From: Streptomyces mobaraensis NBRC 13819 = DSM 40847
GTDB lineage: Bacteria; Actinomycetota; Actinomycetes; Streptomycetales; Streptomycetaceae
Direction of reading: 5' to 3'
NCBI RefSeq assembly: GCF_017916255.1
Contig: NZ_CP072827.1
Location: 5,109,501 to 5,173,500, forward strand
Length of the DNA stretch: 64,000 nt
Within the stretch, counting starts at the first letter, position 1. Each line of letters starts with the position of its first letter. Positions 1 to 11,048 of this stretch are shown here, one piece after another. Under the pieces are notes generated by a model. The model was given only the letters and a program-made list of their open reading frames with translations. It was not told the origin of the DNA and ran no database searches. The position numbers and the translations under genes were made by a program.

Positions 1-1456
1 CGTCCTTGTTGGCCTCCCAGTACCGCTGCTTCCACCGGCGGTCGGGGACCCGGCCGGGGACCTCGTTCGGCAGGTCGACCCCGGTGGTCGCGCCGAGGCC
101 GAACCGGTGGGCCGTCCGGTAGAACCAGTCGCCGGCGCCGCCCTTCGCCCGGAGTCCGCCGTCCGCGCGCCACTCGTCGTGGGCGAGCCGGTAGAAGACG
201 GTGTCGCAGGAGACCTCCAGGGCGCGGCCCAGGGAGATCGGGCCGTGGTTCGCCGACTCGAAGTTCTTGAAGACCTGGCTGCCGATCCGGTACGAGCTGG
301 AGCAGTCGTAGGGCCCCTCGTAGGAGTGGCCCGCGTCGACCGCGGCCGTGGTGGAGATCACCTTGAAGATCGAACCGGGCGCCGACTGGCCCTGGATCGC
401 CCGGTTGAGCAGCGGGTGGTGGGAGTCCTCGCCGGTGAGCTTGCGGTAGTCGGCGGCCGAGATGCCGCCCACCCAGGCGTTCGGGTCGTACGTCGGCGCG
501 GACGCCATGGCCACCACGCGGCCCGTCTTCGCCTCCATCACCACGACGGCGCCGGAGTCCGCCTTGTAGTTCTCGCCGGTGTTGTGGTCCCACTCCTTGC
601 GGGCGGCCTTCATGGCCTCGTTCAGCTCGTACTCGGCGACCCGCTGGACGCGGGCGTCGATGCTGGTGACGAGGTTCGAGCCGGGCACCGGCGGGTCGGT
701 CTCGGCCGTGCCGATCACGCGTCCCAGCTTGTCGACCTCGTGCCGGGTCACGCCGGCCCTGCCGCGCAGCACCTCGTCGTACTGCCGCTCCAGCCCGGAC
801 CGGCCGATCATGTCCGAGCGCAGGTACGGCGAGTCGCCGTCCTTGGCCCGCGCCACCTCCTCGTCGGTGACGGGGGAGAGGTAGCCGAGGACCTGCGCGG
901 TGTTGGCCTCGCCGGGGGCCGGGTAGCGGCGCACCGCCGTGGGCTCGGCGGTGATGCCGGGGAAGTCCTCGGCGCGCTCCCGGATCTGGAGCGCCTGCCG
1001 GGTGGTGGCCTTGTCGGTGATCGGGATCGGCTGGTACGGAGAACCGTTCCAGCACGGCCGTGGCGTCTTCGCGTCACACAGCCGGACCTTGGCCATGACC
1101 TCTTTCGGGTCCATGTCCAGCAGCCCGGCGAGCCGGGTGAGCACCGCCTTGCCGCGGTCCTTCGCCTTCGACAGCTCGGTCCGGGACGCGGAGACGACCA
1201 GGCGGCTCTCGTTGTCCGCGAGCGGCACCCCGCGCGCGTCGAGGATCGACCCGCGCACGGCGGGCTGGACGGACCGCTGGACGCGGTTGCCGGTCGCCTC
1301 CGCCGCGTACTCGTCCCCCTTGCGGATCTGGAGGTACCAGAGCCGCCCGCCGAGGGTCAGGAGCAACGAGAAGACGAGGATCTGGACGACGACGAGCCGT
1401 ATGCGGATCCGCTGCGTCCGGCCGCCGGTCTCCGGGATGTTGGTCACGCGCGGCAT
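1..1456 (-). CDS. Penicillin-binding protein 2 (class B transpeptidase), 3' end outside window
   Basis: Class B penicillin-binding protein that cross-links peptidoglycan on the outer face of the membrane. The 485 visible residues start at the ATG whose first base is 1456 (protein begins MPRVTNIPETGG). There is one membrane anchor (about residues 18-42), then a PBP dimerisation region, then the transpeptidase domain. The SxxK motif is PGSIFK with catalytic Ser362. The SxN-type motif is SCD at Ser416, as in PBP2-type enzymes. The KTG motif would lie beyond the left edge. It lies downstream of a D,D-carboxypeptidase gene on the same strand, with a 102-bp gap. The usual mreBCD neighbours are not on its 5' side, so it may be a paralogue of the mre-linked PBP2. 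Confidence 0.9.
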   Translation of the reverse strand, partial: MPRVTNIPETGGRTQRIRIRLVVVQILVFSLLLTLGGRLWYLQIRKGDEYAAEATGNRVQRSVQPAVRGSILDARGVPLADNESRLVVSASRTELSKAKDRGKAVLTRLAGLLDMDPKEVMAKVRLCDAKTPRPCWNGSPYQPIPITDKATTRQALQIRERAEDFPGITAEPTAVRRYPAPGEANTAQVLGYLSPVTDEEVARAKDGDSPYLRSDMIGRSGLERQYDEVLRGRAGVTRHEVDKLGRVIGTAETDPPVPGSNLVTSIDARVQRVAEYELNEAMKAARKEWDHNTGENYKADSGAVVVMEAKTGRVVAMASAPTYDPNAWVGGISAADYRKLTGEDSHHPLLNRAIQGQSAPGSIFKVISTTAAVDAGHSYEGPYDCSSSYRIGSQVFKNFESANHGPISLGRALEVSCDTVFYRLAHDEWRADGGLRAKGGAGDWFYRTAHRFGLGATTGVDLPNEVPGRVPDRRWKQRYWEANKD

Positions 1457-1558
1457 TCCCCCCACAGGAACCGAACAGTCGTACCAGCAGCAGAGCTTAG
1501 GCGACGTGGGGGGAGCGCGGCATCGGGGGGCGGGGCAGGCCCGTCCTTCGGTCGCGGA

Positions 1559-4500
1559 TCAGCCGATCCGGGTGATCCGCGTACCGAAGGACGGCTCCTT
1601 GAGCGCCGACTTCACCACGACGGGGACCTTCCCGGCCGCCGACCCGGGCCCGGGGGTGGCGATCAGCTCGCCGACGACGGTCCCGCGCTTGGCCGTACGG
1701 GCGAGGGCCCGTCCGCCGTCGCGGAAGGTGACGCGCACCCGCTGCCCCGGCAGGCCGACGACGGTGAGGTCCTTGGCGGCCACGACGGGCGTCCGGCCGC
1801 CGAACCCGTCGTCGACATGCCCGACGACTTGCCCCTTGCGCACGACGGTGGCGGTGGTCAGCCCCTTGCGCACGGCCGCGACGACCTTCCTGCTGTTCTC
1901 CAGCACCAGGGCGAGGCTGTTGGAGCCGTTCGGGTCCGGGCCGGTGACGTGCTGGTCCATCATCGTGCCGAGGACCAGCCGTTCCTTCCCGTCCACGGTG
2001 GCCCGCGCGGCCCACGACAACGTGCCGCCGGCGGGGGTGTTGGAACCGGTCTTGATGCCCTCGACGCCCAGACCGGCGGTGAGCAGCGGGGCGTTGTTGT
2101 TGTCGATGTGCCCGGCACCCGGGATGTCGGCCCCGACCATGGAGACGACGGACCGGAACGCCTCCGACTTCATCACGGCGTCGGCCAGCTTGAGCTGGTC
2201 GACGGCGGTGCTGACGGTCCCGCGGTCGAGGCCGCTGGGGTCGGTGTAGGTGGTGTTCCGCATGCCGAGCGCCTTGGCGGCGTCGTTCATCTTCCGGACG
2301 AACGCGGTCTCGTCCTTGGACTTGGTGTCCCAACGCGCCAGCATCCGGGCGATGTTGTTGCCCGACGGGATCATGAGCATCCGCAGCATGTCCAGCTCGC
2401 TGAAGCTCTGCCCTTCCTGGAGCCCCTCGACGCGGGACTCGTCCTCGGCCGTCCCGTCCGTCACGGTCTTGGCGTCGATCGTGATCCGCGGCCCCTTCTC
2501 GCCCTTGGCCAGGGGATGCTCGCGCAGCACCACGTAAGCGGTCATGATCTTGGCGACACTGGCGGTCGGAACGGGCTTCTCCGCCCCGAACGTCCCGACG
2601 GTCCCGCCCCCGGCGACCATGACGGCCCCCTGGCCCTTCTTCGGCCACGGAATGACGAACCGACCCCCCGGAACGGTGACCGTGGAAGCGGCCTCCCGCA
2701 CCTTCAACTCGGGCGAGGGCAACGGCCGCACCATCTGCACGACCAGAAACACGACGACGAGCAGCGCGAGCACACCCCCACCCAGCAGGACGGGCCGCCG
2801 CCGCGCGGCTTCCCGCGCCACGCCCCGCACACCGGCGTCACCGGACTCGGCACTCTCCGCCCCGGCACCACCGCCACTCTTGCCCACGACACCGGCAGGA
2901 CCGGGCGCGGGCACGGCGACCTTGACCGGCCCGGTGGCTTGGGGCTTGGTGCCCGCCGGGGACTTGGCGGAGGCGGCGGCTTGGCTCGATCCGCCGGTCT
3001 TGGGCTTGGCGTCTGTCGGGGGCTTTGCCGAGCCCGCGCCCGTGCCCTTGGTGGGAGCGGCGGCCTTGGACTTGGCATCCGCCGGGGGCATTGCCGAGCC
3101 TGCGCCCTTGGACTCGGCGGAGGCGGATGCCTTGCCCGCGCCGCGGGCGGCCTGGCCCCCGGCCCGGGGCACGGCCTTGCCCTGCGGCTCGGCGGGAGCA
3201 TCGGCCTCGGACTCGGCTTCGGCATCGGCCTCGCCCATGCCGCCGCGCTCGGTTCCGGTCTCCGCCGGCGCCTTGCCCCGGGCAGAGGGCTCCGACTCGG
3301 TGCCGCCGCTGACCGCGGCAGCGTTGCCGGTGGCGGCGGCCTTGCCCCGCCCGCCCGACCGGACGCCGTCCACGACGTCGCCACTCGCCGCCTTCACGCT
3401 GCCGGGCTCACCACCACTCGCGGCAGCGGCCACGTCCGCACCTTCGGTCCCGGAGGCACGGGCGGCGGCATCGCCTTCCGTACCACCCACACCGTCGGCC
3501 TCGGCCGCGTCCGCACCGCCGACAGGTCCACCGACCTTGCCCGTGGCAGCGGGCTCGCCCTCCCCGGACCGGCTGTCGGTGGCCACCCCGTTCGTGCCAC
3601 CGGATTCGGCCCCGGTGTCGCCTTGGTCCGTGCCGTCGCCGGTGGTTCCGACGGCAGAAGCACCGGCCGCGCCCTTGGCGGCGGGCTTGTCCGTCGCGGA
3701 CTTGCCGCGGGCCTCGGCCGTCTTCTTCGCACCGCTATCGGCCTCGGCTTCGCCCTGGCCCCCGACCTCGCCGGAGGCGACGGCGGCAGCGGTGCCGGGC
3801 TCGCCCTTCCCGGACTCGTCGCCGGTCTCGACTTCGGCCGCGTCCCGGTCTTCGACGGTGCCGGAGGCGACGGCGGCGAGGTCGCCCGCCTTGTCCGCGG
3901 CGCCGCGCCCGGACTTCCTGCCGGACTCGCCGGTCTCGTCCGTGTCCGTACGGGCCTCGTCCTGGTCTCGCGTCGTGGCCTTGCCCGCCGCGCCGGCTGT
4001 GGAACGTTCCGTGGATGCGGCGGGAAGCCGGTCGTCCGCAGGATCCGGTACGTCTTTGGCGTCCGCGGTGCGGGCGGTGCCCTTCGTAGCGCTCCCGGCA
4101 AGGGACTTGGGGCCGGCGCCGCCGCTCTTGGCCTCGGACCGGGGAGCGCCTCCGCTGCTCGCCTCGGCTCCGTCCGCGTCATCCGACGCGGCGGGACTGC
4201 CGACGGCGTCCGGGACGCGGACGGAGCCGTGCTCGGAGTCGGCTGAGGTTCCGCTGCCGGGGCGGACCTCGGTACCGGCGTCCGCCGCGCCATGAGCGGC
4301 GGACGCTTCGGCGTCGGCCTCGGTGTCGTCACCGGGCCGAGGGGCGCCCATGGTGTCGTCACCCGGCCGGGAGCCGCCCTCGGCGTCGGCGGTCACCTTG
4401 CCGGACACCTCGGCACGATTCCGCGCCTGGGCGCCGGCCGCCGCGTCGCGCGCGGTGTTCTGCCGGCGAGACTTCGCCTCGGACGCGTCGGAACTCCCGG

Positions 4501-4783
4501 TCGCCGGCCGGGCCGCCGCGGCCTCGGCGCCCGCGTCGGGCCCGGGCTCCGTCGTCCCGCCGGCGGACGCCGCGCGGTCGCCGGCGCGCGTACCGCCCTC
4601 GGCGGAATCGGCGGACTCGGCGTCCCGCTCGGCGCCCACCGCCGTCCCGGCCGCCCGCCCGCGCGAGGCGTCGGCACCGGCCCGTTCGGACGCGGCGCCG
4701 GACGCGGTCGCTTCACGTTCGTCGGAGGAGACGTCCGCCCGCGTCGGCTGCTCGTCGGGTGCGTCGGGGGATCGGCCCGCCAT
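1559..4783 (-). CDS. D-alanyl-D-alanine carboxypeptidase (S11) with giant low-complexity N-terminus
   Basis: Serine-type D-Ala-D-Ala carboxypeptidase of the PBP5/DacA family, which trims the terminal D-Ala of peptidoglycan stem peptides. The 1074-residue protein has three parts. Residues 1 to about 660 are Ala/Gly/Glu/Asp/Lys/Ser/Thr-rich and look disordered. One membrane span lies at about 662-685. The catalytic domain follows, with SVAK (Ser742-Lys745), SGN (Ser807-Asn809) and KTG (Lys911). With this topology the long extension is cytoplasmic and the enzyme extracellular. The ATG at 4783 follows AGGAG at good spacing. Typical S11 enzymes have about 400 residues, so the extension is the oddity. 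It contains degenerate repeats of a Lys/Pro/Thr/Gly-rich unit at about residues 570-640. Confidence 0.9.
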   Translation of the reverse strand: MAGRSPDAPDEQPTRADVSSDEREATASGAASERAGADASRGRAAGTAVGAERDAESADSAEGGTRAGDRAASAGGTTEPGPDAGAEAAAARPATGSSDASEAKSRRQNTARDAAAGAQARNRAEVSGKVTADAEGGSRPGDDTMGAPRPGDDTEADAEASAAHGAADAGTEVRPGSGTSADSEHGSVRVPDAVGSPAASDDADGAEASSGGAPRSEAKSGGAGPKSLAGSATKGTARTADAKDVPDPADDRLPAASTERSTAGAAGKATTRDQDEARTDTDETGESGRKSGRGAADKAGDLAAVASGTVEDRDAAEVETGDESGKGEPGTAAAVASGEVGGQGEAEADSGAKKTAEARGKSATDKPAAKGAAGASAVGTTGDGTDQGDTGAESGGTNGVATDSRSGEGEPAATGKVGGPVGGADAAEADGVGGTEGDAAARASGTEGADVAAAASGGEPGSVKAASGDVVDGVRSGGRGKAAATGNAAAVSGGTESEPSARGKAPAETGTERGGMGEADAEAESEADAPAEPQGKAVPRAGGQAARGAGKASASAESKGAGSAMPPADAKSKAAAPTKGTGAGSAKPPTDAKPKTGGSSQAAASAKSPAGTKPQATGPVKVAVPAPGPAGVVGKSGGGAGAESAESGDAGVRGVAREAARRRPVLLGGGVLALLVVVFLVVQMVRPLPSPELKVREAASTVTVPGGRFVIPWPKKGQGAVMVAGGGTVGTFGAEKPVPTASVAKIMTAYVVLREHPLAKGEKGPRITIDAKTVTDGTAEDESRVEGLQEGQSFSELDMLRMLMIPSGNNIARMLARWDTKSKDETAFVRKMNDAAKALGMRNTTYTDPSGLDRGTVSTAVDQLKLADAVMKSEAFRSVVSMVGADIPGAGHIDNNNAPLLTAGLGVEGIKTGSNTPAGGTLSWAARATVDGKERLVLGTMMDQHVTGPDPNGSNSLALVLENSRKVVAAVRKGLTTATVVRKGQVVGHVDDGFGGRTPVVAAKDLTVVGLPGQRVRVTFRDGGRALARTAKRGTVVGELIATPGPGSAAGKVPVVVKSALKEPSFGTRITRIG

Positions 4784-5505
4784 CCATGTCTCCTACGTCG
4801 CGTGTCCTGGTGCCGCGGGCCGGTGTCACGCCCGGCGGACCCGGCGGTCCACGACTGAGACACTCAGGTGCGCCCGAGCACCGCGAACGCGGGAAAGGAC
4901 GGTGTGGAGAGACGCCGGGAACCGGACTCCGCACAGGCCCTCCCCCTGGGCCTGAAGGCCGTTCACCGTACGGCGGCGTCAGCGTAACCGATCACTGTTC
5001 GACGCCGTCCCGTCCGCCCGGCCCAGCCGACGAGGCCGCAGCCGGAGGGCCCTGTGTCTCAGGCGCTCCCGGCCTGTCGACGGTTTTGAACAGCGTCGCC
5101 GCCACTCGCGGCCGGAGCACGTTGTCGGAAACCGTGCCGCACCCTCGCCGCCGATGGACAGACGGCAATAGGAGGGCTTCGCCGCGCTCATACGCGGACT
5201 GGCGTGTCCGCTCGGTGGCACCGCCCGTCGTCTCCGCCAACGTCATGCACCGGAAGACCGTCGCCAGCGGCGAGCACACGGTTCTGCTGGGCAGTCCCGC
5301 CCTCGCGGGCCCGCGAGACCATGCGCGCCCGACAGGGGCGCTGCTCGAGAGCGTGGGAAGCACCGGTGTCGCCCCGTCGGGGGCATCCGCGGTGAACTGG
5401 ATCCGGCCTCTGGTTCTGTCCGGCGGGAGGCTACGAGGCGCGGCGGCGGCTGCGTTGTCGCGGGAGCTGTCTTTGCCGCGATCGCCTACCGGATAGATTC
5501 GCCTC
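4784..5505. other. Gene-poor interval, no convincing gene
   Basis: This 720-bp stretch separates the divergent carboxypeptidase and ATPase genes. Open frames exist on both strands, but none has a recognisable domain, a good ribosome-binding site or convincing codon bias. Its right end carries the ATPase promoter. It may include the left boundary of an acquired segment. Confidence 0.5.
5494..5499 (+). promoter_or_regulatory. -10 element TAGATT of ATPase-TOPRIM cassette
   Basis: TAGATT lies 6 nt before the ATG at 5506, with TTTGCC about 16 nt upstream as a possible -35. No Shine-Dalgarno sequence lies in between, so the transcript is probably leaderless. Confidence 0.5.
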
Positions 5506-6741
5506 ATGCCCAGCCGCCTCCTCGAACTCCACGTCGAGAACTTCCGAAGCCTGCGAGACGTGACCGTCCCGCTTGGCCCGCTGACCGTCCTGGTGGGGCC
5601 GAACGGTGTGGGCAAGTCGAACGTGCTGAAGGTTTTCGATTTTCTTGCCGACATCATTCGCACGGACCTTCAGCCGGCGCTCGACGTGCGCGGCGGCTTC
5701 GACGAAGTTGCCTTCTGGGGTGGCGTCAAGCCCCCCACCTTCATGCGCGTCCAATTGAAAGCGACCTGGACGAGCAACTCCACACTTAATGCGCCTGACC
5801 AGTACAGTCTCACGATCCGGCGACGATCCCTGCCGGCGAACCGGGACAGCAGCCGGGCCGCCTACACCCTGTCCCGTGAGGAGAGCTTCGTATTCAAGCG
5901 AACCCAGGGGAGGGGACGGCGCATCACCATTTCCGGCGAGGAAGCGCGCGTGGTCGACAGGCGCGCGGGCAAGGAGGAAGGCGGCGGGAGGTTCGGTATC
6001 CGCAGACTGAGCAGTGGCTTGTCCACGCTTCCCAGGCTCGGTCCCGCGGACGGCGGTGACGAGGTGACCCGCGTTGCGGAACGCCTCTCATCCTTTCGGG
6101 TCTTCGACGTCGATGTCGCCGCGGCTCGTATGCCCACTCGGCTGCGTGCCGCAGACATGGATACGCTGGCGTCCCATGCCGAGAACCTCGCTGCTTTCCT
6201 GATCAACCTCAGTGGGCGTGAGGAGATCTGGGAGAACCTGGTCGAAGACGCCCGGCGGGTGCTGCCGCAACTGGAGAGCATCGAGTTCGAGGAGGCCGGC
6301 GGTTCGACCGACCAACTGACGGTCGTTCTGCGCGAGCGAGGCCTGCGCCGCCTGACCCCTCTGGCCGATGCCTCTTACGGCACGGTCCGCTTGTTGGGGC
6401 TGCTCGCCCTTCTCTACGATCCTCACCCGCCGGCCTTCACCTGTATCGAGGAGATCGATCACGGGCTGCACCCGCAGGCGCTGGAGCTCATCGTGGAGCG
6501 GCTGCGGGAAGCCTCTGAGCGTACGCAGCTCATCGTCGCCACTCACTCTCCCGCCCTCGTGAACCGGCTTCGACCTGACGAGTTCGTCGTCTGCGACCGG
6601 GACGATGGAGGCGCATCGGTCATTCCGGCGCTCACGGCGACGGAAGTCGAGGAGATCGTCGAGGAGTCGGGAGACCAGCCACTCGGCGAGCTCTGGTTCG
6701 CGGGCGTGCTCGGCGGCGACCTTACCGGGGGAGCGCTGTGA
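5506..6741 (+). CDS. AAA/ABC-type ATPase (OLD/RecF-like, AAA_21), putative defence ATPase
   Basis: A 411-residue P-loop ATPase of the OLD/AAA_15/AAA_21 class. Walker A is GPNGVGKS (residues 31-38), after the typical LHVENFRSLRDV opening. A signature-like segment SYGTVRLLGLLALL precedes Walker B, TCIEEIDHG (Glu315-Glu316, Asp318). The H-loop is ATHSP (His347). The insert between Walker A and the signature is consistent with the dimerising or coiled-coil region of this class. The stop overlaps the next start by 4 nt (GTGA), so the two genes are translationally coupled. By family analogy (OLD, PARIS AriA, RloA) it would sense or unwind DNA and gate its TOPRIM partner; this is inference. Third codon positions are less GC-rich than in neighbouring genes, suggesting acquisition. 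Confidence 0.85.
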   Translation: MPSRLLELHVENFRSLRDVTVPLGPLTVLVGPNGVGKSNVLKVFDFLADIIRTDLQPALDVRGGFDEVAFWGGVKPPTFMRVQLKATWTSNSTLNAPDQYSLTIRRRSLPANRDSSRAAYTLSREESFVFKRTQGRGRRITISGEEARVVDRRAGKEEGGGRFGIRRLSSGLSTLPRLGPADGGDEVTRVAERLSSFRVFDVDVAAARMPTRLRAADMDTLASHAENLAAFLINLSGREEIWENLVEDARRVLPQLESIEFEEAGGSTDQLTVVLRERGLRRLTPLADASYGTVRLLGLLALLYDPHPPAFTCIEEIDHGLHPQALELIVERLREASERTQLIVATHSPALVNRLRPDEFVVCDRDDGGASVIPALTATEVEEIVEESGDQPLGELWFAGVLGGDLTGGAL

Positions 6742-7403
6742 GCGGCAGAGGCCGGGGAAGTGGCTCGCGCGGCAGTTCCCCAAGCAAAGTGATTGTTCTC
6801 GCCGGTGAGGACCAGAACGACTGCGACATCATGGCGGCTTTGATACGTGCGCACCGCCCCGACTTGTGTGCGGCTGCCAAGCTGGTTCGCATCAATGACC
6901 CCGTGCGACTGCGCAAGAAGTCCGGCGCCGATCTGAGCGCGGCGGTAAAAGCGCTTGTCGGTAAGGCGCGGGCCAAGGCGCTGCAGCAGAAGGCGCAGCT
7001 TCTCGGGTTTGTCGTCCACGAAGACCTGGATGGATTCACCGATCCCCACTACAGCAAGGTCCGTGCAGCGGTCTCCGCTGAACTCGACCGTCAGTGCACG
7101 AGCTTCCACCACACTGCGCTGGCGCTTGCCGCCTGGGAATCGGAAGGCTGGCTACTCCTCTTCCCGGATGCTTTCCCGCACGTACGCCCCAGGTGGAAGG
7201 TTCCCCCTCGGCTGCGGGGAAGGGACATGGGCCGGGTCAAGGAACCCAAGGAGGAACTCAAAGGACAGCTCGGGTCACCGCGCTTTCGCGAGAGCGACGG
7301 CCCCCTGGTCGCGCGTGCCGCTTTGGAGCATGGTCTGATTCGCGCCCCCGAGGGCGAAAACGACTCGTACATGGACTTCGTCGAGGAGCTCAGGAACTGG
7401 TGA
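6738..7403 (+). CDS. TOPRIM-like DUF4276-type protein, partner of the ATPase
   Basis: A 221-residue protein starting at a GTG that overlaps the ATPase stop. It looks like a stand-alone TOPRIM fold. An N-terminal strand ends in Glu24 (VIVLAGEDQND), and a second hydrophobic strand ends in an acidic pair, Asp96 and Asp98 (FVVHEDLDGF). This matches the E...DxD metal-binding pattern of TOPRIM nucleases and DUF4276/DUF4435 proteins. A downstream segment WESEGWLLLFPDAF resembles the conserved Glu/Trp...Asp region of DUF4276. With the ATPase it forms a two-gene module analogous to AriA-AriB (PARIS) or AbiL-type systems. The family assignment is from motif recognition only, and the function is inferred. 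Confidence 0.7.
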   Translation: MSGRGRGSGSRGSSPSKVIVLAGEDQNDCDIMAALIRAHRPDLCAAAKLVRINDPVRLRKKSGADLSAAVKALVGKARAKALQQKAQLLGFVVHEDLDGFTDPHYSKVRAAVSAELDRQCTSFHHTALALAAWESEGWLLLFPDAFPHVRPRWKVPPRLRGRDMGRVKEPKEELKGQLGSPRFRESDGPLVARAALEHGLIRAPEGENDSYMDFVEELRNW

Positions 7404-7578
7404 GCACCCGGGTACCGGAGGCCGTGCAGGGTTCCGACAGGTGCCGCTAGGTCTCGTTCGCGGGGTTCGCCCACGAAAGATGGGCGGGGACGTTCACGGC
7501 CCGGGCCGGCTCAAGGGAACAAGTCAACGTCCCGGTCCGTGGCGCCCGTCGGCGGCCGGATCCATCCACGCATACGGG

Positions 7579-7614
7579 AAAACCCCGCCTCACCGGTTTC
7601 GGTGGTAGGCGGGG
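7579..7614 (-). terminator. Rho-independent terminator downstream of tRNA-Arg
   Basis: An 8-bp stem (7583-7590 with 7607-7614) has a short inner ACC/GGT extension and, read on the minus strand, is followed by TTTT (7579-7582). It lies directly 3' of the minus-strand tRNA gene. Confidence 0.65.
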
Positions 7615-7636
7615 CTTTCCGGCACTTCCTGCGAAG

Positions 7637-7708
7637 TGCCCCCGGCAGGATTCGAACCTGCGCACACGGCTCCGGAGGCCGTTGCTCTATCCCCTGAGCT
7701 ACGGGGGC
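7637..7708 (-). tRNA. tRNA-Arg (anticodon CCG)
   Basis: A 72-nt cloverleaf on the minus strand. The acceptor stem GCCCCCG pairs with CGGGGGC, and the D-arm has GCTC/GAGC. The anticodon stem ACGGC/GCCGT encloses the loop CTCCGGA, giving anticodon CCG. The T-arm is GCAGG-TTCGAAT-CCTGC. The discriminator base is A and the CCA end is not encoded. It would decode CGG. A TACTGT hexamer (minus strand, 7755-7750) upstream is a possible -10. tRNA genes are common integration targets, and the ATPase-TOPRIM cassette lies on its 3' side. Confidence 0.97.
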
Positions 7709-7870
7709 GTGTCTTCCGTTCGCGGTCTCGCTCGCGGCGACAGGAAGAACAGTACCAGCTCCGGGCGGGTGATCCGTAACGGGTTCCGGAACGGGCGCCG
7801 GTGGAGGGAGGCCGGGTCGCTCTCGGGGGTGGAAGTGGGGAAAACCCGGACGCGGTGCGGTGGGCGCGCC

Positions 7871-7876
7871 TACCCT
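7871..7876 (+). promoter_or_regulatory. -10 element TACCCT, leaderless response regulator
   Basis: TACCCT (TAnnnT) lies 6 nt before the GTG at 7883, with no Shine-Dalgarno sequence between. This is the arrangement of an actinobacterial leaderless promoter. Confidence 0.5.
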
Positions 7877-7882
7877 CGGGGT

Positions 7883-8380
7883 GTGCCTGGCTTGCCCGGC
7901 CGGGTCCTCGTTGTCGACGACAACAGGGTCATCCGGCAGTTGATCAGGGTCAACCTCGAGCTCGAAGGCTTCGAGGTCGTGACCGCGGCCGATGGTGCCG
8001 AGTGCCTGGAGATCGTGCACCGGGTGCGCCCCGACGTCGTGACCCTCGACTTCGTGATGCCCCGGCTCGACGGCCTGCGGACGGCGGCGCGGTTGCGGGA
8101 CGATCCGCGGACGCGGGACATACCCATCGCCATCATCAGCGCCTGCACGCAGCTCGAAGCGGAGGGCGGGCGGTCCGCCGGGGTGGACGCGTTCCTGGCG
8201 AAGCCCTTCGAACCGGCGGAGCTCGTGCGGACGGTGTGGGGGCTGCTCCTGGGGCGCGGGGTGCGTGACGGGGGCGACGGGGAGGCGGGGGAGACGGCGC
8301 CCGGTGACGCCGGGGCCGGAGCGGGGACGGGGACCGGGGCCGGGACCGGGACCGTGGTGCGGCCCACCGGCTGCCCATGA
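7883..8380 (+). CDS. Single-domain response regulator
   Basis: A CheY-like receiver of 165 residues. The acidic pair is Asp12-Asp13, the phosphoacceptor is Asp56 in VTLDFVMP, and the conserved Lys lies in FLAKPFEP. There is no DNA-binding output domain. After the receiver comes only a Gly/Thr/Ala-rich tail of about 40 residues. No histidine kinase gene is adjacent, so it is an orphan that would act by protein contact. The GTG start was chosen because the receiver begins right after it (PGLPGRVLVVDD) and because of the -10 element immediately upstream. The open frame extends further upstream but runs into the tRNA gene. Confidence 0.85.
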   Translation: MPGLPGRVLVVDDNRVIRQLIRVNLELEGFEVVTAADGAECLEIVHRVRPDVVTLDFVMPRLDGLRTAARLRDDPRTRDIPIAIISACTQLEAEGGRSAGVDAFLAKPFEPAELVRTVWGLLLGRGVRDGGDGEAGETAPGDAGAGAGTGTGAGTGTVVRPTGCP

Positions 8381-8560
8381 GAACGGATCGGCGTGACGAC
8401 GGACCAGCGTGACGACGGACCGACGTGGCAGCGGCCCGCCCTGGCGACAGCCCGTGTTCGGCGGACCGGCGTGAGGCCGATCGCCCCCGAGGACGGATGT
8501 AGGGGGCATGTCCGGGGAACATCGGGGAAACCGGCTGGCGGAGCGACCCGCTTCCTCCCC

Positions 8561-8566
8561 TAGGCT
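8561..8566 (+). promoter_or_regulatory. -10 element TAGGCT, leaderless start of ArgS-like gene
   Basis: TAGGCT lies 7 nt before the GTG at 8574. No ribosome-binding site lies in between, which supports leaderless initiation and the choice of this GTG. Confidence 0.5.
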
Positions 8567-8573
8567 TGCCCCT

Positions 8574-9428
8574 GTGACCCCCGCAGATCTCTCCCGTACC
8601 GTGCTGCGCGCCGTGCGTCGTGCCATCGACGCCGACGAGCTGCGCGCCGTGGCGCCGGCCGCGGTCGGGATCCGGGTGCCGCCGCACCCGGGCAGTGGGG
8701 ACTACGCCACCGAAGTCGCCCTGCGGCTCGCCAAGGAGAGTGGACGGCCCGCCCGGGAGGTCGCCGAGCTGCTGCGGCGCCGGCTGGTACGGGAGCCCGG
8801 GATCGCCCGGGTCGACATCGCCGGCCCCGGGTTCCTCAACATCACCCTCGCGGGTGCCCCGCACGCGCGGCTCGTACAGGACGTCCTCGCGCGGCGCACG
8901 GACTCCGAGCCGCTCCCGCTGCACCCCTCCGACGAGCTCGTCCGGCGGCTCGGGTCCGACGCCGCCCGCTGGAGCCTGGTCAGCCCGCCCGGCCTCGACC
9001 GCCGCCTGCTGCTGGTGCAGCGCGAGGCCAACCCCCTCTTCCGGGTGCGGTACGCCCACTCCCGGTGCCGCGCCCTGCTGCGCAACGCCCACGACCTCGG
9101 GTTCGGCCCCTCCGTCGCCGACGGCGGCGAAGGCACGGAGGGCACCGACGGCCCCGACCTCTTCGGTGCCGGCTCCGGGCCCCTGATATCCGGCCTCGCC
9201 GATCACCCCCGCATCGTCGCCGCCCGTGACCCCGAGCGGCTCGCGCGGGCCCTGGAGCGCCTGGCCGACGCCTTCCTCCGCTGGCAGACGTCGTGTCCGA
9301 CGCTGCCCCGGGGGGACGAGAAACCCTCGGTCGTCCACCGCGCCCGCCTGGCCCTCGCCGAGGCCACGGGCACGGTGCTCGCCGACGGCCTCCACCAGCT
9401 CGGCATCACCGCACCCGCACATCTCTGA
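8574..9428 (+). CDS. ArgS-like protein: N-terminal and DALR domains, no catalytic core
   Basis: A 284-residue protein resembling the two ends of arginyl-tRNA synthetase joined together. The N-terminal half matches the ArgS Add-1 domain ([17 protein letters not shown], then [12 protein letters not shown]). The C-terminal half matches the DALR anticodon-binding domain ([14 protein letters not shown] at the start, [20 protein letters not shown] at the end). The Rossmann catalytic domain with HIGH and KMSK-type motifs, normally about 300 residues between them, is absent. It cannot aminoacylate but could still bind tRNA-Arg. It lies 44 bp upstream of lysA, the position occupied by argS in corynebacterial argS-lysA operons. 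The first ORF start at 8508 is less likely than this GTG. Confidence 0.85.
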
Positions 9429-9472
9429 GACCCCACATCTCCGAGCACCGAGCACCCGAGGAGATCAGCGCC

Positions 9473-10864
9473 ATGAGCCGCTCCGCCCACCCCGCCGGGC
9501 CCCGCTACGCCGACGTCCTGCCCGAGGGCCACTACCCGGCGCCCCCCGCCGACCTCAACGCCCTCCACCCGCGCGTCTGGTCGCGCACCGTCTCCCGGAA
9601 CGAGGACGGCGTCGCCACCGTCGGCGGGCTGGACGTCAAGCGGCTGGCCGAGGAGTTCGGCACCCCCGCCTACTTCCTCGACGAGGACGACTTCCGGGCC
9701 CGCTGCCGCGCCTGGCGCGAGGCGTTCGGACCGGACGCCGACGTCTTCTACGCGGGCAAGGCGTTCCTCTCCCGGGCCGTCGTGCGCTGGCTGACCGAGG
9801 AGGGGCTCAACCTCGACGTCTGCTCCGCCGGCGAGCTGGCCACCGCGCTCGACGCGGGCATGCCCGCCGAGCGGATCGCCCTGCACGGCAACAACAAGTC
9901 GGCCGAGGAGATCAGCCGGGCCGTCGAGGCCGGTGTGGGCCGGATCGTCGTCGACTCCTTCCAGGAGATCGTGCGCGTCGCGCACACCGCCCAGCGGGCC
10001 GGGAAGCGGCAGCGGGTGCAGATCCGGGTCACGGTCGGCGTCGAGGCGCACACCCACGAGTTCATCGCCACCGCCCACGAGGACCAGAAGTTCGGCCTGC
10101 CGCTGGCCGGCGGCCAGGCCGCCGAGGCCGTCCGCCGCGCGCTCAAGCTGGACGGGCTCGAACTGATCGGCATCCACTCGCACATCGGCTCGCAGATCTT
10201 CGACACCTCCGGTTTCGAGGTCGCCGCGCACCGCGTCGTCGGCCTGCTCCGCGAGATCCGCGACGAGCACGGCGTCGAGCTGCCCGAGATCGACCTCGGC
10301 GGCGGCCTCGGCATCGCCTACACCCCGGACGACGACCCCCGCGAGCCGCAGGAGATCGCCACCGCGCTGCGCGCCATCGTCGAGCGGGAGTGCGCGGCGG
10401 CCGGGCTCGCGGTGCCGCGCCTGTCCGTCGAGCCGGGGCGCGCGATCGTCGGTCCCACCGCCTTCACGCTGTACGAGGTGGGGACGGTCAAGGAGCTCCC
10501 CGGACTGCGGACGTACGTCAGTGTCGACGGCGGCATGTCCGACAACATCCGTACCGCGCTCTACGACGCCGACTACTCGGTGGCCCTGGTGTCGCGTACG
10601 TCGACGGCCGACCCGATGCTCTCCCGCGTCGTCGGCAAGCACTGCGAGTCCGGTGACATCGTGGTCCGCGACGCCTTCCTGCCCGCCGACGTCGCCCCCG
10701 GCGACCTCCTCGCCGTGCCCGCGACGGGCGCCTACTGCCGCTCCATGGCCAGCAATTACAACCACGCGCTGCGGCCCCCGGTCGTGGTGGTGAAGGACGG
10801 CGCGGCCCGGGTGATCGTCCGGCGGGAGACGGAGGAGGACCTGCTCCGCCTCGACGTCGGCTGA
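9473..10864 (+). CDS. lysA: Diaminopimelate decarboxylase
   Basis: PLP enzyme that decarboxylates meso-diaminopimelate to L-lysine, the last step of lysine biosynthesis. The 463-residue protein has the fold-III decarboxylase barrel with PLP lysine Lys96 (YAGKAF), the phosphate-binding GGGLGIAY segment, and the C-terminal CESGDI and [14 protein letters not shown] motifs that complete the dimeric active site. The ATG at 9473 follows GAGGAG. It is preceded by the ArgS-like gene and followed by hom, linking lysine and threonine formation from aspartate semialdehyde. Confidence 0.97.
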
Positions 10865-11048
10865 CGACTCCGACGTCGGCTGACCCCCTGACATCGGCTG
10901 ACGACGCCCGGCCGATCACAGCCCCCGCCGGCCGCCCGAAAACCGGCCGGCGGATGTCGGAATCTCGGATACTGGACGGGGGAGCGAATCCCTCCGACCG
11001 GTGAGTGAGACTGGTGTACCACCCAAGATGTACGAGAAACGAGGTCGG

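Follow-up and report, generated by a model that had tools for sequence, protein, structure and literature searches.

PMC12409363 describes the PARIS effector AriB as a metal-dependent Toprim tRNase that is sequestered by the ATPase AriA, and reports that ribosomes were not stalled by an AriB E26A mutant. IbfA, according to PMC12111858, is a fused ATPase-TOPRIM protein that is homologous to HEC-04 and lowers phage productivity. HEC stands for Hma-embedded candidate in PMC12111858 and PMC12988326. We compared these systems with a two-gene pair from Streptomyces mobaraensis NBRC 13819 = DSM 40847, which lies in a stretch of 64,000 nucleotides (contig NZ_CP072827.1, positions 5,109,501 to 5,173,500) that we call the window. 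All coordinates below are window positions; L-numbers denote loci elsewhere and G-numbers Streptomyces genomes. An original prediction had described the pair as a candidate ATPase-TOPRIM-motif defence system beside tRNA-Arg(CCG), and had proposed profile searches of both proteins and a neighbourhood survey of ATPase-DUF4276 pairs as checks. Such a candidate is already catalogued in PADLOC-DB, under the name HEC-01. The locus has the following features.

5494..5499, + strand: promoter hexamer TAGATT, of -10 type, 12 nt 5' of the ATG, probably serving a leaderless operon.
5506..6741, + strand: OLD/AAA_21-type ABC ATPase (HEC-01A), 411 aa, ATG start, proposed sensor or regulator, from Pfam, PADLOC and motifs.
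6738..6741, + strand: GTGA overlap of the ATPase stop with a possible effector start, a junction shared with other pairs.
6738..7403, + strand: effector (HEC-01B), GTG start, 221 aa (204 aa if the start is 6789), placed in the DUF4276 superfamily through PADLOC and hhalign.
Within 6738..7403, + strand: effector motif residues from alignments, E24...D96xD98 in a TOPRIM-like order, plus E134, E136 and W138.
7571..7636, no strand: limit of the conserved synteny, next to the 3' end of the tRNA, from blastn against the relatives' sites.
7636..7708, - strand: tRNA-Arg(ccg) found by ARAGORN, 3' end towards the effector, an integration hotspot in relatives.

We favour, with moderate confidence, the reading that the pair is a sensor-effector defence module of the HEC-01 type, which reached the variable 3' flank of tRNA-Arg(ccg) by horizontal transfer. 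Its identity comes from the profile searches. The ATPase scored 683.1 bits against the PADLOC model for HEC-01A (PDLC04183), which covered residues 1-406 of its 411, and the adjacent effector gene scored 298.9 bits against the model for HEC-01B (PDLC04207). Because adjacent genes match HEC-01A and HEC-01B, the pair is, on these profile matches, an instance of the candidate defence system HEC-01 of PADLOC-DB 2.0.0. The ATPase also scored 136.2 bits against Pfam AAA_21 (cut-off 27). Its Walker A residues (G31, N33, G36, K37 and S38), Walker B residues (E315/E316 with D318) and H-loop (T346-H347-S348-P349) were unchanged in 24 pairs, comprising the window and 23 others. The gene thus codes for the complete OLD/AAA_21-type ABC ATPase that had been predicted. 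The effector gave a single insignificant match in Pfam (E 0.18) and none in NCBIfam.

The two genes are unfused, since a stop codon separates ATPase from effector in all 24 pairs, that of the window included. The tetranucleotide expected at a 4-nt overlap, GTGA, is present at the junction and recurs in all 23 other pairs, as ATGA in L010. It arises because the final ATPase codon is CTG, CTA or ATG and is followed by a TGA stop, so that its conservation may partly reflect the end of the ATPase; in L010, CTA yields ATGA and a start codon is retained. The overlap itself is less secure than had been supposed. The gene caller chose an effector start at 6789, the database copy (P0001) is 204 aa long, and the first 17 effector residues are poorly conserved. 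An effector start at 6738 is therefore not certain, and a start at 6789 would remove the overlap and renumber the motif residues as E7, D79 and D81. Upstream of the ATPase, a TAG[GA]T[TC] box stands 10-13 nt 5' of the start in 23 of 24 upstream regions (window included), in otherwise varied surroundings. The box in L010 ends in TC; the exception is L064, where the position of the ATPase start is unsettled. This conserved -10 box supports the shared leaderless promoter that had been proposed.

We traced the ancestry of the effector through profile comparisons. Its homologues numbered 180, and among the 120 listed, those named by organism came from Streptomyces, except for one from Actinacidiphila. 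At least six of the same 120 are labelled "DUF4276 family protein" by a source. The window effector itself did not match the DUF4276 model PF14103 up to E = 1, and none of ten effector relatives scanned matched any Pfam model, PF14103 included, up to E = 10. A second HEC-01B model, PDLC04210, was matched by all five effector relatives scanned (E 3.9e-6 to 5.5e-4) and, up to E = 1, not by the window effector. Loci found with PDLC04210 held an open reading frame resembling the window ATPase in 16/16 cases. All ten effectors scanned from these loci matched PF14103 with E no higher than 0.055, and two of them (L073 and L079) exceeded the cut-off; the L079 protein scored 59.6 bits and also matched PDLC04207 at E 3.7e-4. 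In hhalign, the alignment of the immediate effector family (A2, 17 sequences) matched an alignment of PDLC04210-type effectors (A4, eight sequences) with probability 94 and E 8.6e-8, and an alignment of nine proteins that pass the cut-off of PF14103 (A3) with probability 57 and E 1e-4, these E-values being those of single comparisons. Both alignments spanned almost the entire sequences and brought the acidic motifs into line, and a response-regulator control gave a probability of 0.2. By these profiles the effector is tied to the DUF4276 superfamily, indirectly, via HEC-01B intermediates. The proposed DUF4276-type effector accordingly stood as a matter of profile kinship, with DUF4276 and not DUF4435 as the relative, and fell short of a direct PF14103 match. 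A full-text literature search found no mention of DUF4276 or PF14103.

A glutamate followed by a DxD pair is the signature order of TOPRIM domains. The effector carries this arrangement at Glu24, Asp96 and Asp98, the residues that had been predicted, and all three were unchanged in the 24 pairs of the immediate family. In a wider joint alignment of 23 sequences, E24 was retained in 22 and D96 in all, as were E136, W138 and K171. We estimate, in round terms, that the effector is quite likely to be a TOPRIM protein; the assignment reads a putative fold from a motif pattern. Candidate catalytic residues are E24, D96, D98 and E134/E136 in the effector and K37 and E316 in the ATPase. By analogy with PARIS and with IbfA/HEC-04, the ATPase may keep the effector inactive, or may activate it only when signalled. 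The trigger, encoded by the phage or induced by infection, would alter the ATPase. The effector would then cut DNA or RNA, the latter perhaps tRNA, in a metal-dependent reaction, and this cutting would stop the infected cell. The sequestration or activation step, the trigger, the substrate and the abortive outcome are all modelled on those two systems, and the pair probably has antiphage activity. A bolder proposal, which we regard as distinctly doubtful, is that HEC-01 systems with this effector branch form a class of their own, pairing an ATPase with a DUF4276 toxin: both genes, under their own leaderless promoter, would move as one unit into the 3' flanks of many different tRNA genes, and the conserved ATPase sensor would release the fast-evolving effector to cut RNA or tRNA.

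We surveyed 392 Streptomyces genomes for both genes. Up to seven effector and four ATPase candidates were scored per genome, the ATPase threshold was E up to 1e-60, and adjacency was judged by eye from coordinates. Presence was patchy: effector profiles matched in 33 genomes, and ATPase matches occurred at 26 places in 25 genomes. The pairing and gene order were consistent, with an effector match adjoining all 26 ATPase places. Such a distribution bears on another function for the pair, as an ATPase and nuclease of DNA repair or chromosome maintenance (RecF/SMC-like) with no part in defence. The ATPase does exceed the Pfam cut-offs for AAA_15 and SMC_N, and it also matches the RecF and RecN models, at scores far below their cut-offs. 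Its best-scoring models are defence candidates, however, and a gene present in so few genomes, with decayed copies, low GC content at third codon positions (GC3) and differing neighbours, makes a maintenance role very improbable.

Decay was frequent. In eight of the 33 effector-bearing genomes we found effector pieces only, with no ATPase match at E 1e-60. ATPase pieces lay beside the effector pieces at four of six such loci looked at (L003, L041, L042 and L043; not L035 or L044), a check that left out G200 and G302. Among the places with an ATPase match, the ATPase was partial in G100 and G181 and the effector was split in two pieces in G294 and G181. G319 and the second copy in G383, both with a nearly whole ATPase, were flagged with one internal TGA, and tblastn of residues 4-406 gave no stop there. 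The decayed copies are what would be expected of a neutral passenger of tRNA-linked mobile elements that is already being lost. But the ATPase is covered nearly whole at 24 of the 26 places, and the intact copies retain their active-site motifs and promoter box; we judge the passenger explanation even less probable than a role in repair. Separately, G383 holds two divergent copies of the pair (L061 and L064) about 20 kb apart, with ATPases 78% and 44% identical to that of the window.

The two proteins have diverged at different rates. In all 276 comparisons among the 24 pairs the effector was less identical than the ATPase (means 60% vs 77%, correlation 0.80), which indicates that the effector is the fast-evolving partner. 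The ATPase and effector trees were broadly alike by eye. Swapping of effectors between lineages is disfavoured by this likeness, and faster effector evolution is preferred. The 24 loci are partly non-independent: several neighbours recur in L007, L049 and L054, and other loci have one or two in common.

We examined the same site in relatives. Twenty were compared, chosen from the 45 genomes, out of 46, that had a marker match. The neighbours on the tRNA side, named by eye, are a response regulator, an NrtL-like protein and LysA. The first two were present in all 20 relatives, LysA in 19 (L121 is cut by a contig end) and tRNA-Arg(ccg) in 19. The HEC-01 pair was absent from the site, within about 9 kb, in 20/20. 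Blastn of window positions 1-11000 placed the leftmost homology at 7571-7636 in 19 relatives and at 7825 in L113. In G018, the nearest relative by NrtL identity, synteny on the left resumes at its own position 5108433, and the variable segment measures about 8.6 kb in the window and 3.6 kb in G018. The segment in the window contains the HEC-01 pair and two genes that read by eye as of cell-wall type. Both genes of the pair are outlying in composition. The 43 genes called in the window, the ATPase among them but not the effector, average 0.949 in GC3 (SD 0.031); the ATPase has 0.798 and the effector 0.747, and the next-lowest called gene stands at 0.895. The less GC-biased third positions noted earlier were thus confirmed. 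So was the gene-poor stretch upstream, where a composition-based caller placed no gene in 4784-5505, though open frames are present there. The original prediction had named conservation at the same place in all streptomycetes, with normal codon usage, among the outcomes that would speak against it. A vertically inherited core locus is rejected on the absence of the pair from this site in all 20 relatives and on its GC3.

The adjacent tRNA-Arg(ccg) lies 233 bp from the effector end, as had been described, at a site that varies among relatives. A second tRNA-Arg(ccg) end was found nearby in L114 (5585-5631, 47 bp) and L120 (3567-3609, 43 bp). L112 has a second called tRNA-Arg(ccg) at 2228-2364, and ARAGORN gives two such genes about 7 kb apart there. 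These second copies and ends look consistent with integrated elements that use tRNA-Arg(ccg). RepSA, a pSAM2-type replication protein, accounted for three of 51 proteins called beside tRNA-Arg(ccg) at 20 loci (L050 included). The second tRNA ends and RepSA mark the site as an integration hotspot. The window has no second tRNA end, and on that ground an intact integrative element there is rejected.

We then measured distances to tRNA genes at 24 further loci (L045-L064, L006, L007, L010 and L012), with flanks of unequal length. At three of them the effector ended 20 bp from tRNA-Cys(gca), 192 bp from tRNA-Lys(ttt) and 299 bp from tRNA-Leu(gag). Two more had tRNA-Arg(ccg) at 7.6 kb and tRNA-Leu(gag) at 8.4 kb. 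At all five tRNA-linked loci and in the window, the tRNA lies beyond the effector and its 3' end points at the pair; no tRNA lay on the ATPase side at the 24 loci within the flanks examined. Including the window, four copies out of 25 have a tRNA 3' end within 300 bp, and the tRNA differs each time. A Poisson estimate with a background of two tRNAs in 239,723 bp gives about 3e-5 for at least three tRNAs within 300 bp on the effector side among 24 loci, and 3e-4 for both sides. The 300-bp limit was set after the distances had been seen and the loci are partly non-independent, so we treat the tRNA association as a lead. The location of the pair is variable, and its recurrence at different tRNA 3' ends, together with the faster effector, offers leads on how such pairs spread and on which of the two proteins faces the arms race.

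Several findings weigh against a TOPRIM-based defence module. D98 was retained in just 15 of the 23 sequences of the wider alignment; the predicted motif is exact in the immediate family and looser in this set. No solved chain was significantly similar to the effector family or to its DUF4276-type relatives. Hhalign of the effector gave 0.4, 1.1 and 1.6 against RloB (A5) and 8.9 against the OLD TOPRIM (A10); the control comparison of the OLD TOPRIM with RloB also gave only 0.8, and because this control failed the hhalign negative says little. The pair had no match in the phage and plasmid collections searched, which gave no case of carriage by either. The literature search found no phage assay of HEC-01, the original preprint being outside that search. 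Families with PADLOC models numbered 66 near the pair vs 35 in controls, which is not a clean enrichment: 113 flanking proteins from the 24 loci were compared with 113 control proteins, taken from 121 in 20 regions of carrier genomes (eight were dropped to equalise numbers), counts are of members per family and not of distinct matching proteins, and matches in the control regions include DpdJ, BrxHI, SngC, PD-T4-6 and MkoA models. Finally, in G100 a full-length effector (L054:9623-10746) adjoins a match to only the last 151 ATPase residues.

This last locus bears as well on a competing explanation, in which the pair is a toxin-antitoxin or addiction module: the ATPase would restrain a toxic nuclease, the pair would stabilise its carrier islands, and defence would be incidental. 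Consistent pairing of ATPase and effector would fit such a module, as would the occurrence of the pair in variable regions and next to tRNA 3' ends. That L054 retains an entire effector beside a truncated ATPase is unexpected if the ATPase is a simple antitoxin. The plasmid collection gave no match, and there was no convincing second, att-like tRNA end in the window or in the examined flanks of the five tRNA-linked loci, where integrases were not specifically searched. We consider an addiction module unlikely, and the HEC-01 defence module remains the reading we prefer. L054 may also serve as a natural experiment on whether an effector by itself does harm.

Proteins next to some copies outside the window match models of restriction or other defence systems, as do proteins of the control regions. 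A type IIG restriction enzyme adjoins it in L056, and likewise in L057 as judged from similarity to L056. The flank of L064 matched MkoA/MkoC models and PD-Lambda-2_C, and that of L012 matched PD-Lambda-2_C. NsnA, NsnB and JetC models were matched among the flanking proteins of the 24 loci. When ten neighbours were scanned singly, four matched at E 1e-15. At L102 (5842-9231), a contact-toxin-like set lies next to tRNA-Arg(ccg); it consists of an RNAse_A_bac domain protein and two smaller proteins (about 186 and 218 aa). In L007, L049 and L054 the pair is flanked by proteins that resemble this set in size and order; these three loci are similar to one another, and L102 was matched to them by size only. 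In the window itself, the gene at 1559-4783 on the - strand looks, by eye, like a D-Ala-D-Ala carboxypeptidase whose N-terminal region is very long and of low complexity. For its last 373 residues, 17 relatives gave best matches of 45-63% identity, and these lie away from the tRNA-Arg site. The names of neighbouring genes used here (response regulator, NrtL, LysA, D-Ala-D-Ala carboxypeptidase, penicillin-binding protein) are all readings by eye.

The pair resembles PARIS in being a two-gene combination of an ABC ATPase and a TOPRIM-motif protein with a catalytic glutamate near the N-terminus (AriB E26; window E24), and a similar sensor/effector logic would be expected. Membership in PARIS is rejected. 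The AriA model scored 125.1 bits against the ATPase, below seven HEC-01 models and far from the 683.1 bits of HEC-01A, and the effector had no AriB or DUF4435 (PF14491) match up to E = 1. The proposal of a PARIS-like pair thus survives as an analogy of mechanism and not as membership. Like the OLD family and IbfA (HEC-04), the pair links an ABC ATPase with a TOPRIM-type domain; in the window, however, the parts are separate genes, in contrast to the fusion that defines OLD classes 1-3. The ATPase resembles MAD3 of the MADS system, but its NCBIfam score of 116.5 bits is far below the curated cut-off of 420. With DUF4276 (PF14103) proteins the effector shares a collinear E...D(x)D...ExW...PK arrangement, and differs from them in that it has no PF14103 match of its own. 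The effector family and its DUF4276-type relatives are thus a group without a sequence-detectable solved relative, and a pair this compact makes the question of their substrate directly testable.

HEC-01 remains the nearest system. "HEC" is not mentioned in the two PADLOC papers searched, and a literature search for "HEC-01" gave, among the matches listed, only its use for hydroxyethyl cellulose. Both window genes match the HEC-01 component models nearly full length, and we found no difference in kind. To the catalogued system our analysis adds the tie to DUF4276, the -10 box, consistent pairing together with decay, a faster-evolving effector and an association with tRNA 3' ends.

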